Assembly: GCA_016208495.1 (NCBI GenBank)
Contig: JACQXX010000048.1
Coordinates: 1 to 64,000, forward strand
Reading direction: 5' to 3'
DNA from: Acidobacteriota bacterium
GTDB taxonomy: Bacteria > Acidobacteriota > Blastocatellia > Chloracidobacteriales > Chloracidobacteriaceae
Length of the DNA stretch: 64,000 bases
Position numbers and translations under genes: made by a program. The first letter of the stretch is position 1; every line of letters starts with the position of its first letter. The notes under the pieces are model-generated. The model saw only the letters and a list, made by a program, of their open reading frames with translations. It did not search any database and was not told where the DNA came from. This document shows positions 3,001 to 36,241 of this stretch, piece by piece.

Positions 3001-3430
3001 TTTTCACCGTCAACTCAATCTGACCGGGAACAACATTTGGATCAGGTGATTCGACTTCGATCTGGTACGTGTCTGCCGTATCGCTCACAAACCAGAGTTC
3101 TTCTAATCCCTTGGTGCCATTTGGACTGTCAACTTCGATCAGTACTTTGCCATCAGGAGTTTTCAAGCGAACCACGACGTCAATTCCCTGCTGGTCAACC
3201 GTCAAATTCAGATACTGATTGGCTTGCAGTCGAAGGTAAAAAACTTTCTTTTCACCACCTGTGAACTCGGCTTTGACCACGCTTCCCTGGGTCAAATCAG
3301 TGGATGCGGCAACATTAGAAGTTTGGGAATCTCCCTGTGCAACGGGAAAATCCATCGAGGTGGCTATCAACCATGCCGTCAGTACAACACCACCTGTCAA
3401 CGCGAGGGGACGAAACAGATGCTTCTTCAT
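26..3430 (-). CDS. Secreted TPR-CHAT protein (intact His/Cys dyad)
   Basis: The product has 1134 residues from the chosen start. An N-terminal signal segment (MKKHLFRPLALTGG onward, hydrophobic to about residue 30) is followed by a PPC-like beta-sandwich (about 45-150), a long TPR array (about 170-590) and a C-terminal CHAT domain (about 800-1130). The CHAT catalytic pair is present: His957 in IATHGYF and Cys1038 in LSACNTGVG. CHAT domains are caspase/separase-fold cysteine peptidases, and bacterial ones include gasdermin- and Csx29-type proteases; the substrate here is unknown. The reading frame opens 29 codons earlier, but I chose the internal ATG at 3430 because the signal peptide begins there. 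It is divergent from the zinc-ribbon membrane protein at 3671, an arrangement repeated at 16842/17415. The domain call is firm; the role is unknown. Confidence 0.9.
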   Translation of the reverse strand: MKKHLFRPLALTGGVVLTAWLIATSMDFPVAQGDSQTSNVAASTDLTQGSVVKAEFTGGEKKVFYLRLQANQYLNLTVDQQGIDVVVRLKTPDGKVLIEVDSPNGTKGLEELWFVSDTADTYQIEVESPDPNVVPGQIELTVKTLRAATATDRVEAELNQSLSQIQVLSASNRIPDALKTAETAIKRGEAALPPDHQLIALAYQELGNLHRIMGKPKEAEAAVLKALAIFEKTLGPTHEDLVLTLNLLGLLADGAGNYAKAETYLLRALDILDHHPQIPEATRATTYNNVALVNDHKGNVQQAEAMYLKALAGFEKANGADSLNCAPVLNNLGLLFHQQGDFLKAEPFYARSIAIRKKYLAPGHPSIAFILNNLADMYSLRSDLKQAIRYQTEAVSILEKAFGEKHPQTILFHINVGEMLLRSGEYEAAGLYYRKASANAESVLGPTHPYSLFGLVGLAGFQLKTSQLSQAEATLTKVLPLMEKAFGPTHPRLMVPLSLLAQLNQTQRKYREAEAAMLRVISIQEKHTNVRFAEPGMYFSNLSHIYQMGGKIEQALAFEMKSNEVVEQDFLKNISLGSERQKVLYLNRTRWGANHLLVLHAQFAPHNQVAINAAVTSVLRRKGRALDVMADTLKLIQARATAQDQAVFEKLIEAQTRLSNLTVKGPGNTKPERFQMLVQGLEAEVDELEAEVSRRSAEYRVQTQPVTLQNIQAAIPENTALVEFTRYQPVQNAESSLNGPPRYLAYIIEPKGDPKWVDLEEVEKIDAITKAFRALLQLSPGTRSRLIKAESRNIKKSNSGSVVLPDQQLRVLAQSLHQAVIKPILKTVKPGTALFLAPEGELNLVPFGALMDENGKFLIENQPIHYLTSGRDLLRRQVKTHSQEPPLVMADPDYAAGTGPQIAGIQLVQLKRLFETAQEGIEVAKVFPDARLKVRAEATEQALKQVKGPQVLHIATHGYFLDKPAEVVGSVDPVAGEEQRDIQLKGSGPASDQTFFQSGIFLAGANRGESGADDGTLTALEAAQLDLRGTKLVVLSACNTGVGEVRTGEGVYGLRRAMVLAGSETQVLSLWPVSDLGTRKLMVDYYTRLKAGEGRAEALRQVQLEMLKSQRFRHPYYWASFVVSGEWSSLAGKE

Positions 3431-3670
3431 AAGATTTTGTGAACTGATGAACCAAAGAAATCGCGGGCAGGAAATCGTGACCTGTGCAGTATGCCGGAAT
3501 GGAGAATGAAGATTCAATTGCTGAAATTAGCCTGTTGCTCCTGGTAAGCCATTGATTTCTTTGGAACATCTCCCAGGTAATCGGAGTCTAAATTCTCATC
3601 ACGGAAGGGTGAGATTCCCATCTCTTTTCATAACAACCAGTTACATTATTCATAGTTCATTCCATGATGT

Positions 3671-4219
3671 ATGAAACTCACTATTCTCTCTGAATCCCAT
3701 CCAAAACGTTGCGAAGTCTGCCATCAAAGCGACTGTTTTGACCCGGCGGCTAATATTTGTGACCGATGCACCCCGGTTGAAATGCCGTTGAAGAATATTG
3801 TCACTTCAGTTTCAGTTCCTGTACCCCAGTTTTGCCTGCTTTCTGACATGACCCCGGATGAGATCGAAGACCTGCCCACAGTTGCACAAGTATCCGCTGT
3901 ATTGTCATTTCTGCATCTGCTTCTTTTTTATTTGAACTATTGCCTGATGGTATTGCCAATAACTTACAAACAATACCTGTTCCGGTCCTGGCTCTTTGGA
4001 GGCTTTGAATTTGCCCTGTTTTTGAGTTTTTTTGGCGCCTGGATTCTGGGCCTGATTTGTTTTCGGACAGCCTGGGACCTATACCCAAATTACAAAGAGT
4101 ATCGAATTTTTTTCTTTGCTGGGTTGGTCTGCTTTTGGCCAACCATTCACCTGGTAATCATCTTTGTCGAGGGCGGCGTTGGGCTTTTGGGTTCAGATGA
4201 CTTTGAATGCTTTTGTTGA
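3671..4219 (+). CDS. Small zinc-ribbon membrane protein, copy A
   Basis: The product has 182 residues. Its N-terminal 33 residues carry a treble-clef/zinc-ribbon-like pattern, Cys14-x2-Cys17 and Cys30-x2-Cys33, with one extra Cys22. Three hydrophobic segments follow, at about 75-98, 107-130 and 140-163, so it is probably an integral inner-membrane protein with a cytoplasmic metal-binding head. I do not recognise the family. A clear paralogue (same first 20 residues except two, same Cys spacing, same topology) is at 17415-17951. Both copies are divergent neighbours of an intact CHAT-TPR gene, which suggests a functional link or duplication of a two-gene locus. No good Shine-Dalgarno sequence precedes the ATG. 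Confidence 0.75.
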   Translation: MKLTILSESHPKRCEVCHQSDCFDPAANICDRCTPVEMPLKNIVTSVSVPVPQFCLLSDMTPDEIEDLPTVAQVSAVLSFLHLLLFYLNYCLMVLPITYKQYLFRSWLFGGFEFALFLSFFGAWILGLICFRTAWDLYPNYKEYRIFFFAGLVCFWPTIHLVIIFVEGGVGLLGSDDFECFC

Positions 4220-4358
4220 ATCTTATGCCCCTCAACTACACAAATTTCGGCCACATAAGAGGCATTGCACCTGATACCACCCAAATGAACTGATATTCGT
4301 TGAATTGAAAGAGAAAGGTGCTCAGATTGCAATCAGGAAGCCAGGGAGGTGGTCAGGG

Positions 4359-4536
4359 CATAAGTGCCAGGATAAGGAAACAGAGCCCGATCTGGACATG
4401 GGGACACAGGGACACGGGGACACGGAGAGAAAAACATTCTCCCGCTCCCAACGTCGGGAGGATGATCTCCTTGTCTCCTTGTTTCCCCAGCTCCTTGTCT
4501 CAAACAGGCTCACATTTCCTTATCCTGGCGCATATG
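4359..4536. repeat. 178-bp inverted-repeat element, family I copy 1
   Basis: The 19-bp ends CATAAGTGCCAGGATAAGG (4359-4377) and CCTTATCCTGGCGCATATG (4518-4536) are inverted copies matching at 17 of 19 positions. Between them lies purine-rich sequence with an 8-bp GGGACACG-like repetition (about 4396-4430). The same ends bracket 24700-24854, and a single end lies at 1-15 of the window. Short frames can be read across the element on both strands, but they look like repeat-derived noise. It accounts for most of the 4220-4630 spacer, where I see no gene. It is probably a non-autonomous (MITE-like) or palindromic repeat. Confidence 0.7.
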
Positions 4537-4630
4537 GGGGAACGGCTCAACCAATGTTTTCCCGGCGGAGTATCTGAAAGTCACCCTTCGGATTGAAGGC
4601 ACATCGCTTTCTCATAAACCTCCTGCGTGC

Positions 4631-5416
4631 CTATTCTGTAAAGCTAAATGTGTAGATTTTACCCAATGTGGAGGACGATGCTGCCGAGGAAAAGGCGCCT
4701 GGTGGGAGAAACCCGTATTCTCCAGGGGCAAGAGCCGTGAGGTTCACCGTAAAGGTGCGGGTGGCGACCTTCTTTCCTTCAAATGGAACTAAATCGCGGG
4801 TGGCACCGCCTTTGATGTGAAATACACCTCCAGTCACGGTCCGGAATTCCCGGTATTCTTTATTTTCCCGGAGCTTGAGCAGTTGATATTCGGTGATGGC
4901 CACACCTTCTGGAGCATAAATCAGGAATTCAAGTGGAGTTCCGACCCGATTTCGGCTTTTATTACCGGAAAGATTGCCGTTGATATCTCCTTTGACAATC
5001 CCAGCCGTCGCCAAATTTTTGAGTACACCTCCAGTTTTCCAGTTGACAATTTCGGGTTGGATTTCAACCCACTCATTCTCCTTTTTAATATACAAACCAA
5101 CTTCCATTGGATACTTATTCGAAGCACCACTCCCTTCAGACCCACCAGGTTTGCTCGGAGCCGGGGCAACTCCTTTATTGACCATGGCGTTGAGTATTTT
5201 TTCTGAAACACCTTGTTCTTTCAGACTGAGAATGTCATCCGGAGTCACCCGGTAATTTCCTGCTTGAGTGTTTATCATGTTGATGATGAGTTCTTCACCA
5301 AACTCACCTTTGACCAGTTTCACAATGGCCTCATTGGTCAACGCTTCCTGAGCAAAAACCAGGGTTGAAAACACCATGAGCCAGATAGTTACAATACAAA
5401 AAAGTACCTTTTTCAT
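4631..5416 (-). CDS. Secreted hypothetical protein
   Basis: The product has 261 residues. A clear signal peptide (MKKVLFCIVTIWLMVFSTLVFAQ, cut after about residue 23) precedes a helical segment (about 26-78, with TNEAIVKLVKGEFGEELIIN and DDILSLKEQGVSEKIL), which resembles a helical repeat often seen in secreted acidobacterial proteins. A Gly/Ser linker (about 82-95) and a beta-rich C-terminal domain follow. The start at 5416 was chosen over a longer frame because GAGGA lies 9 bases upstream and the signal peptide begins there. I do not recognise a named family. It is probably a monocistronic periplasmic or surface protein; its function is unknown. Confidence 0.7.
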   Translation of the reverse strand: MKKVLFCIVTIWLMVFSTLVFAQEALTNEAIVKLVKGEFGEELIINMINTQAGNYRVTPDDILSLKEQGVSEKILNAMVNKGVAPAPSKPGGSEGSGASNKYPMEVGLYIKKENEWVEIQPEIVNWKTGGVLKNLATAGIVKGDINGNLSGNKSRNRVGTPLEFLIYAPEGVAITEYQLLKLRENKEYREFRTVTGGVFHIKGGATRDLVPFEGKKVATRTFTVNLTALAPGEYGFLPPGAFSSAASSSTLGKIYTFSFTE

Positions 5417-5720
5417 AAGCTGAATCCTCGGTTGGTTGAAGCAATTTGACCTCACCAGATCATTCGGATCTGGAGACAGTTCTCTGGAATCTTCGGGGCA
5501 ATCAAACCAGATTTGTTTCAGTGGTCAGAATCATACTTTCAGAATGCCAGGCTGACCGTATCAGACTTCTGAGAAACCTTGTCGAAGGGTAAGGTTCATG
5601 AGAGTTGTTGCAACGAGAGATAACATAATTCATTGATTCCAAATGGTTGCTGTTACAAAGACAAGCTGATAAGGTGGGGAGAGAAAACTCAAAATCTCAT
5701 CTCAAAATGACCATTCTGAA
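5417..5720. other. Intergenic, nothing recognised
   Basis: About 300 bases between two genes on the minus strand. I see no tandem repeat, long palindrome or credible reading frame. It presumably contains the promoter of the gene ending at 4631 and the end of the lipoprotein gene's transcript. Confidence 0.4.
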
Positions 5721-32449: not shown

Positions 32450-32561
32450 GGGTTCAGGGTTCAGGGTTCAGGGTTCAGGGTTCAGGGTTCAGGGTTCAGG
32501 GTTCAGGGTTCAGGGTTCAGGGTTCAGGGTTCAGGGTTCAGGGTTCAGGGTTCAGGGTTCA
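32450..32561. repeat. GGGTTCA heptamer array, 16 perfect copies
   Basis: Exactly 112 bases form 16 uninterrupted GGGTTCA units, with a 17th degenerate GGGTTTA following. About 100 bases downstream, at 32664-32684, three copies of the reverse complement (TGAACCC) form an inverted partner. The bracketed segment contains CCACGGCTACCTGACAACGA, related to the interior of the 24700-24854 element. The array lies between the thioesterase and cytidine deaminase genes, so it is not coding, although a frame can be read through it. Confidence 0.95.
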
Positions 32562-32699
32562 GGGTTTACCACGGCTACCTGACAACGATCCTTCGGGCTT
32601 GAAAACTCTACTTGTCACCGCATGCTTTATAATTTCAAAATTGCCTTTTTTCTTTGAAAACCCTGAACCCTGAACCCTGAACCCTGTTTTTTTCATTCT

Positions 32700-34181: not shown

Positions 34182-35573
34182 ATGATCACCAAAATTGAAC
34201 TTAATGGATTTAAAACCTTTTCCAACTTCCAGATGGAGTTTACTCCGCTGACAGTTATCGCCGGAACGAATGCGTCTGGGAAAAGTAATCTGTTTGATGC
34301 GTTTCAACTCTTGTCACGCCTGGCAGAATTCGACCTGAAAACTGCCTTCAGCAATCAGCGGGGTGAAGCAATCGAACTCTTTACCCAATACAGTGACGGC
34401 ACGTATGCCAATGAAATCACGCTCACCGTTGAAATGCTGGTAGACAAAGAGGTTCGGGATAACTGGGGTGGTGCAGCAACACTCAAGTTTACCCGACTCC
34501 GATATAAATTGATTCTCCAGCGGGTAGAGAATGAAAAAGGGTTGGAAAATTTGCTTGTCAAATATGAGCACTTAGAACCAATCAAACGCGCCAGTGATGA
34601 ATGGGTAAAAAGGTATCTTCCAGCAGATACAACGCATAACTGGCAACCCATTGTGAAAGCAGGAAGATCCAAGCCATTCATTTATACCCAAGACGAAAAT
34701 GGCATTCCCACGATCAAGCTTCCGCAGGATGGAAGGCGCGGTGGAAAAGAAACTCCAGCGAATGCGGTTGCTCAGACAGTGCTCAGCGGTATCAATTCGG
34801 TAGACTTTCCCCATGCATTTGCAGTGAAAGAAGAAATGCGAAGCTGGCGTTTTCTCCAACTTAGCCCGGAAGCGTTGCGCAAACCAAGCCCGTATCTGGC
34901 CAGGGATGTGATTACACCAGAGGGTGCGAATCTGGCGGCAGCCCTTCACCGGATCAAAACTCAGGACCCAGGGTCGCTTCAATTTATTTCGCGAAAATTA
35001 TCAAATCTCCTTCCTCACTTCATTACAGTGGATGTTTATGATGATAAACCTGGTCAACAATATATTCTGACCATGCGCAGTGAGGATGGCCGAGAGTTCA
35101 CCTCGCGGGTCCTTTCCGAAGGAACACTCCGCCTGCTGACGCTGTGTATTCTGGAATATGACGACCTGTTTCGCGGAGTGATTTGTTTTGAAGAACCTGA
35201 GAATGGAATCCACCCCTATCGAATGAAAGCGATGGTCAATCTCCTCAAAGATTTGACCACTGATTTCCAGGAACCAGACCTGCCATTGCGACAAATTATT
35301 GCGAACACGCATTCTCCAATCATTTTTGATGAAGTCTTTAAACTTGAGAGTCCTTTTGCTTCCTGCTGGTTTTCGCAACTTGTCACCCGCATAGATGAGA
35401 TTGGTGGGAGAAGACAAAAATTGAATATCACCTATGTTTTGCCTGTGGCCAAAGTACACCAACCGAATTTGTTTCACTCACCGGCTGAAGAAAAACTGTC
35501 ATTGAGCCAGGCCATTGACTATCTCAAATCCGCGAATTTTGAAAAAACACTTCATCACCTTGGTGCCATATGA
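34182..35573 (+). CDS. AAA/ABC-type ATPase of a two-gene module
   Basis: The product has 463 residues. Walker A is at residues 28-35 (GTNASGKS) after a typical RecF/SMC-like N-terminus (MITKIELNGFKTFSNFQMEF). Walker B reads GVICFEEPENGIHP, with the D-loop and a switch His in ANTHSPIIFDEV near the C-terminus. The insert between them (about 60-330) has no recognised domain. This is the AAA_15/AAA_21 organisation found in OLD-like and PARIS AriA-like defence ATPases. The stop overlaps the next ATG by four bases (ATGA), implying translational coupling with the TOPRIM-like partner. The start at 34182 is chosen over 34140 because homology begins there. Confidence 0.85.
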   Translation: MITKIELNGFKTFSNFQMEFTPLTVIAGTNASGKSNLFDAFQLLSRLAEFDLKTAFSNQRGEAIELFTQYSDGTYANEITLTVEMLVDKEVRDNWGGAATLKFTRLRYKLILQRVENEKGLENLLVKYEHLEPIKRASDEWVKRYLPADTTHNWQPIVKAGRSKPFIYTQDENGIPTIKLPQDGRRGGKETPANAVAQTVLSGINSVDFPHAFAVKEEMRSWRFLQLSPEALRKPSPYLARDVITPEGANLAAALHRIKTQDPGSLQFISRKLSNLLPHFITVDVYDDKPGQQYILTMRSEDGREFTSRVLSEGTLRLLTLCILEYDDLFRGVICFEEPENGIHPYRMKAMVNLLKDLTTDFQEPDLPLRQIIANTHSPIIFDEVFKLESPFASCWFSQLVTRIDEIGGRRQKLNITYVLPVAKVHQPNLFHSPAEEKLSLSQAIDYLKSANFEKTLHHLGAI

Positions 35574-36241
35574 GTCCACTGATCAAGATTGGTATTTTTG
35601 CCGAAGGGCCAACCGACAACCGGTTTCTCCCGCCAGTTGTCAAACGCACCTTTGAGGAAGTGGCCTGGACGTGCCGCCAGCAAATTGACATTCTCGAACC
35701 CGAGGTGATTGATGATCTTCACGTTCCTCACACTTTCGCTGAAAAAGTCCTTGCGGCTGCCCGTCAGGCTCAGCAACGTGGAGTAACTGTTTTGTGCGTC
35801 CACACGGATGCTGATGCCGAAAATGACCACCGCGCTTTTCAATCTAAGATCCAGCCAGCTTTTGAACGAATTCACCAATCAACTGAGGAAGCGTGTAAAC
35901 TCCCAGTCGCAATCGTTCCCGTTCAAATGACTGAAGCCTGGATGCTTGCCGATACAGAACTCTTCAAAAAAGAACTCAACACGACCAAAACTGATTTCGA
36001 GCTTGGAATTCACAAACCACCAGAGTCAATCGCTGACCCCAAAGATGTTATTGCGCAGGCAATTCGAATTGCAACTGACCACGTCGGACGCAGGCAAAGA
36101 CGCTATCAGGTTCATATCTCTGACCTGTATCAACCTGTAGGTCAACGAATCAGCCTGGAAAAACTCTCTCAGCTATCGTCATTTCAAAAGTTTAGGGATG
36201 CCATTCGAGAGGTATTTCAGCAACTCAATTACATGTGGTAA
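35570..36241 (+). CDS. TOPRIM-like (DUF4276-type) partner of the AAA ATPase
   Basis: The product has 223 residues. It starts with an acidic TOPRIM-like motif, Glu12-Gly-x2-Asp16 (IFAEGPTDNRFLPPVVKR), and carries Asp80-x-Asp82 in VLCVHTDADAEND, followed by PVQMTEAWMLAD. That order fits DUF4276/OLD-like TOPRIM nuclease domains supplied in trans. The C-terminal part is helical. The gene is coupled to the ATPase by an ATGA overlap. The two together resemble ATPase-plus-TOPRIM anti-phage modules such as PARIS, but this assignment is by motif only. Confidence 0.75.
   Translation: MSPLIKIGIFAEGPTDNRFLPPVVKRTFEEVAWTCRQQIDILEPEVIDDLHVPHTFAEKVLAAARQAQQRGVTVLCVHTDADAENDHRAFQSKIQPAFERIHQSTEEACKLPVAIVPVQMTEAWMLADTELFKKELNTTKTDFELGIHKPPESIADPKDVIAQAIRIATDHVGRRQRRYQVHISDLYQPVGQRISLEKLSQLSSFQKFRDAIREVFQQLNYMW

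Follow-up and report, generated by a model that had tools for sequence, protein, structure and literature searches.

The window, a 64,000-nucleotide stretch of an Acidobacteriota contig, carries an ATPase gene that overlaps the gene of a small partner protein, and the two constitute a HEC-01-type module whose mode of action is probably that of a split OLD or PARIS system and which is a candidate for anti-phage defense. The pair is a real and catalogued candidate defense module; its defense activity is a candidate function predicted from sequence. HEC-01 (Hma-embedded candidate 01 of PADLOC-DB 2.0.0) is catalogued but apparently uncharacterized, and it now gains a concrete proposed active site (E12, D16, D80, D82, E122, and K158 of the partner). 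Should the partner prove to be a TOPRIM nuclease, ATPase-gated TOPRIM effectors would extend beyond OLD, Gabija, retron, and PARIS systems. In the literature that we searched, we found HEC-01 as a defense system in one gene list only, no experiment on a HEC-01 pair, and no paper using the word DUF4276 (the family of the partner). Several HECs, including HEC-06, were active in a study that does not name HEC-01 (PMC12988326).

An overlapping gene pair that matches HEC-01

Both genes lie on the forward (+) strand. The first (34182-35573; 463 amino acids [aa]) encodes an ABC/SMC-like ATPase of the HEC-01A type on the evidence of PADLOC, Pfam (AAA_21/AAA_15), AF2, and Foldseek. Its reading frame is open from 34140, but translation likely begins at 34182, given that >90% of 77 homologues keep M1. 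The second (35570-36241; 223 aa) encodes the HEC-01B-type partner, a DUF4276 protein and a probable TOPRIM nuclease (PADLOC, Pfam, and AF2). An ATGA stop/start overlap (35570-35573, +) probably couples their translation; in related loci, the genes usually overlap by 4 bases or sit a few bases apart, with a spacing of -4 being the commonest.

When compared with PADLOC-DB 2.0.0, the ATPase had its best match in the HEC-01A model PDLC04184 (E value, 1.2e-134; residues 1 to 452 of 463), and the partner in the HEC-01B model PDLC04212 (E value, 2.5e-55; residues 3 to 222 of 223). The gene order is also that of HEC-01 (i.e., the ATPase and then the DUF4276 partner, adjacent and on one strand). A sequence-only reading of this DNA had proposed a possibly uncatalogued split system; that the system is uncatalogued is not supported, because PADLOC-DB models both genes over their full length and the pair is therefore already catalogued as candidate HEC-01. 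The same reading correctly described an ATPase (Pfam AAA_21; E value, 2.9e-26) with a partner resembling DUF4276 (E value, 4e-9) rather than DUF4435, for which Pfam gave no match.

We searched for relatives with the partner only, taking one genome per species; of the 187 relatives found, 80 were kept. An ATPase gene was directly upstream of the partner in 78 of these loci, which come from many phyla. The two unlinked cases were L064, which had no ATPase, and L049 (Candidatus Marithrix; 3322-5454), a deletion-scarred remnant. We rejected the latter as a one-chain fusion, given that it is decayed and that internal deletions join its ATPase and partner fragments. The HEC-01A model PDLC04184 was matched by 77/77 ATPases, and HEC-01B models were matched by 79/79 partners. 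Pairwise identities of the ATPases and of the partners were correlated across 75 loci (Spearman rho, 0.85, versus at most 0.12 in permutations; rho was 0.75 in the close clade). The ATPase and partner are inherited and transferred together, although physical contact between them does not follow from that alone.

Motifs and relatives of the ATPase

The ATPase has the complete ABC/SMC-type set of motifs, all of which are invariant or nearly so among 77 homologues. These are the Walker A motif GTNASGKS (residues 28 to 35; 34263-34286, +; G33, K34, S35, and the adjoining N36 invariant), the ABC signature-like sequence LSEGTLR (residues 311 to 317; 35112-35132, +; S312, G314, T315, L316, and R317 invariant), the Walker B and D-loop region GVICFEEPENG with the catalytic Glu (residues 332 to 342; 35175-35207, +; E337, E338, E340, and N341 invariant, with EEPENG at residues 337 to 342), and the H-loop NTHS (residues 375 to 378; 35304-35315, +; T376 and H377 invariant). 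The two genes lie at the coordinates given by the sequence-only reading. The motifs that it named (Walker A, Walker B, the ATGA overlap, and the partner's EGPTD and HTDAD) were all present and were among the most conserved positions, while its list had omitted LSEGT (residues 311 to 315), the NTHS H-loop, E122 and K158 of the partner, and the HEC-01 entry. Because the key residues are invariant or highly conserved across 77 ATPases and 79 partners, the motifs of both proteins are not due to chance.

The AF2 model of the ATPase (pLDDT, 94) had as its top Foldseek matches the retron IA ATPase, SMC heads, PtuA, the retron Ec78/Ec83 ATPases, Rad50, and TsOLD. A profile search matched TsOLD (6e-12), the Retron-Eco8 OLD nuclease (1.8e-8), and AriA (4.9e-6). 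These matches support a relationship of the ATPase with the OLD, AriA, and PtuA ATPases, as had been suggested earlier for the OLD and PARIS ATPases.

Predicted active site of the partner

In an alignment of 79 partners, P117, E122, W124, and K158 were invariant, and G13, D16, H78, D80, and D128 were at least 90% conserved. Four conserved segments probably form a TOPRIM-type catalytic center: motif 1, E12-G-x-x-D16 (EGPTD, residues 12 to 16; 35603-35617, +), with E or D at position 12; the DxD motif, H78-x-D80-x-D82 (HTDAD, residues 78 to 82; 35801-35815, +), with D80 in 77/79 partners and D or E at position 82; T121-E122-A-W124 (35930-35941, +; T121 in 73/79), the probable second-metal site; and P157-K158 (36038-36043, +; K158 in 79/79), with the probable catalytic lysine. 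In the AF2 model (pLDDT, 95.3), E12 follows strand 7-11 and precedes helix 16-32, D80/D82 follow strand 74-78, T121/E122 are at the start of a helix after strand 112-115, and K158 is within helix 157-168. The predicted order (strand-E..D-helix-strand-helix-strand-DxD-helix-strand-TE-helix-K) fits a TOPRIM domain.

In the TOPRIM domain of Class 2 OLD proteins, metal A is associated with E400, D455, and D457 and metal B with E404, T506, and E508, together with K562 (Schiltz et al., PMC6755086). The corresponding residues of the partner (E12/D80/D82, D16/T121/E122, and K158) occur in the same order as this BpOLD set. The second-metal spacing differs (T-E in the partner versus T-x-E in BpOLD), with T121, E122, and K158 being conserved and matching in order. 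The acidic residues had already been read as TOPRIM-like, and this proved right with regard to their order and predicted topology.

Residues 12 and 82 vary in a coupled manner. Exactly one Glu and one Asp occupied these positions in 75 of the 76 readable partners (53 E/D, 22 D/E, 1 E/E, and 0 D/D). Both residues changed together, about eight times on the ATPase tree and about six times on a partner tree from which these columns had been left out. Because only three independent swaps fall on branches with good support, significance is out of reach for a sign test. We infer that residues 12 and 82 are two ligands of one metal site. Overall, conservation and the structure model indicate that the partner likely has a TOPRIM-type two-metal site.

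Direct comparisons limit the TOPRIM reading. Foldseek found no match for the partner model at an E value of ≤0.001 in either the PDB or BFVD and no TOPRIM among the 50 PDB matches listed, and PDB sequences searched with a profile gave chance matches only. The predicted topology fits the earlier TOPRIM proposal, but Foldseek gave no significant structural match in the PDB; the TOPRIM fold is therefore one that we infer. In hhalign comparisons, the partner aligned with OLD and DUF4435 alignments at 5 to 7% probability, in register at EGxxD, and with DUF3226 at a weak probability. Five partner homologues weakly matched DUF3226 (best E value, 0.0027) and two weakly matched OLD-like_TOPRIM (0.042), a Pfam family that the window partner itself did not match. 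The partner profile scored single OLD, DUF4435, and DUF3226 sequences as a group above a null of 400 unrelated proteins (KS P = 1e-5, which is optimistic because these sequences are mutually related). Krishnan et al. (2020), writing on ABC ATPases, may already have assigned DUF4276.

A different reading of these data is that the partner has a Rossmann-like alpha/beta fold other than TOPRIM, with acidic motifs that imitate those of TOPRIM, and would act as a metal-dependent hydrolase or nucleotide enzyme instead of a nuclease. The best, insignificant Foldseek matches (PurE and small GTPases) and the weak hhalign scores for TOPRIM families are in line with such a protein. The E..D, DxD, TE, and K elements of the partner, however, match the OLD active site in order and topology, the coupled E/D swap links motif 1 with the DxD motif, and some homologues do weakly match DUF3226 and OLD-like_TOPRIM; we regard a non-TOPRIM fold as very unlikely.

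Comparison with known ATPase-nuclease systems

Like the window pair, the OLD family (Classes 1 to 3; e.g., BpOLD, TsOLD, GajA, and Retron-Eco8) has an ABC ATPase, and the putative two-metal residues of the partner, with the additional Glu and Lys, follow the order of those in OLD TOPRIM domains. In OLD proteins, however, both activities reside in one polypeptide, whereas here they are in two genes, and no intact one-chain fusion was present among the 80 loci. PARIS is similar in having adjacent genes for a split ATPase and a TOPRIM-type effector, with AriA being a related AAA_21 protein. The window partner matched neither the AriB nor the DUF4435 models, and we therefore rejected membership in PARIS. 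Septu and the PtuAB-carrying retrons have a related ATPase fold. The PtuB partner of Septu is an HNH nuclease; the window partner belongs to DUF4276 and had no HNH match, and Septu was rejected as well. The PDC-M38/AbiL-like pair is also a split ATPase with a small EGxxD protein (DUF3226), but both of its genes belong to other model families. The phylum yielded no RloB loci to compare.

The window's own genome has two further split pairs. One (G000:C49; L150:40-2295) is PARIS-like, with an ATPase gene followed by a DUF4435 gene (PADLOC AriA, 3.9e-27; AriB, 1.3e-23). The other (G000:C78; L140:1483-3509) combines an ATPase with a DUF3226 protein (PADLOC PDC-M38A, 2.5e-99; PDC-M38B, 1.3e-57). The presence of three split pairs of different types in a single genome suggests that this architecture recurs.

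PARIS depends on the release of the AriB dimer, a two-metal TOPRIM tRNase, by its ATPase sensor AriA (PMC12409363); OLD and GajA cut DNA (PMC10568477). By analogy, the HEC-01 ATPase would dimerize or oligomerize and serve both as a sensor and as a scaffold to which the partner is bound. As a TOPRIM two-metal phosphodiesterase, the partner would use E12, D80, and D82 for metal A, D16, T121, and E122 for metal B, and K158 for the transition state. Upon infection or the entry of foreign DNA, the ATPase would release or activate the partner, which would then cleave DNA or RNA (phage DNA or, as with AriB, host tRNA), such that phage growth is blocked or the infected cell is aborted. A more specific proposal, which we put forward tentatively and hold to be somewhat less probable than its converse, is that the HEC-01 pairs form a class of their own among split OLD-like immune nucleases, with DUF4276 being a divergent TOPRIM two-metal enzyme. 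Its metal A carboxylates would have been repeatedly swapped (E12/D82 to D12/E82), which would point to a metal site of conserved volume, and the enzyme may be an RNase (tRNase) released by the ATPase as in PARIS.

Distribution and genomic context

Within the phylum, a partner was detectable in only 8 of 396 genomes, and the ATPase tree intermixed Acidobacteriota, Bacteroidota, Chloroflexota, Calditrichota, and Pseudomonadota. The taxonomically closest relative (G001/L013, from the same family) grouped with Spirosoma (support, 96) and not with the window. In G001, the HNH, thioesterase, cytidine deaminase, plsC, and yraN genes are in the same order as in the window, with about 200 bp and no cassette between plsC and yraN; its own HEC-01 is on another contig and in a different branch of the tree. 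The plsC-yraN interval of G001 is thus an empty site, with which an insertion in the window and a loss in G001 are both compatible. In the window, the cassette is alone between plsC and yraN with no recognized defense system adjoining, and the GC3 of the module is 45%, versus 50 to 62% in eight neighboring genes. The phylum-mixed tree, the empty site in a relative, and the low GC3 make it clear that the HEC-01 cassette is horizontally mobile. We saw no direct repeats flanking the cassette from which an insertion mechanism could be named. In another genome (G002), the plsC-yraN interval contains a response-regulator/DUF4388 protein in place of HEC-01 (L121:1520-2902). The cultured species Spirosoma telluris has HEC-01 twice, as diverged cassettes on separate contigs (L015 and L018).

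The 113 neighbor proteins around 27 close homologues comprised 124 Pfam families, mostly housekeeping, each of which was found in at most 4 proteins. A shared metabolic neighbor was rejected, given that the most frequent neighbor cluster occurred in only 11 of approximately 80 loci. The module is a lone islet without the stable metabolic context that would have counted against the earlier proposal, and the earlier description of an islet among housekeeping genes held true, both in the empty site of the relative and in the variable neighbors. PADLOC matches among the near neighbors of close homologues were sporadic, as they were among distant neighbors, with no clear excess of defense genes near the module.

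These distributions bear on the possibility that the pair serves in cellular DNA repair or chromosome maintenance, as an ATPase-nuclease pair similar to Rad50/Mre11 or to the archaeal OLD ATPase Cran1, and not in defense. Housekeeping neighborhoods and the fold matches to SMC heads and Rad50 are compatible with such a function, and one OLD-family ATPase does act in the cell cycle (PMC12796447). On the other hand, the patchy, phylum-mixed spread of the pair (8/396 genomes) fits accessory genes, unlike conserved repair genes, and the copy in the same-family relative belongs to another branch and lies at another locus. A repair role therefore appears rather improbable.

Another explanation is that the module is a toxin-antitoxin pair or maintains mobile DNA. 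The ATPase would restrain the partner, a nuclease toxin, and the selected role would be to stabilize mobile DNA, not to defend against phages. The overlapping two-gene operon in a mobile single islet would suit this role, Pfam AAA_21 annotates the ATPase family as putative AbiEii type, and AriA was deposited in the PDB as "AriA antitoxin." However, no relative was found in 72,556 plasmid records, and the loci seen were among chromosomal genes. We consider a maintenance role unlikely as the selected function, while noting that it overlaps mechanistically with a split OLD- or PARIS-like defense module because PARIS itself is antitoxin-like.

Scans of viral contigs found no relative. Phage origin of the module was rejected: the sole match in phage collections, MT836135.1 ("Bacteriophage sp."; L011), looks like a mislabeled bacterial contig, because its HEC-01 adjoins ruvB and a gene for DNA alkylation repair.

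Separately, the window contains a short tandem repeat array with a unit of about 7 bp (32497-32693) in the interval that separates the thioesterase gene from the cytidine deaminase gene, and this repeat recurs at two places in G001 (L120:1-175 and 5240-5440).
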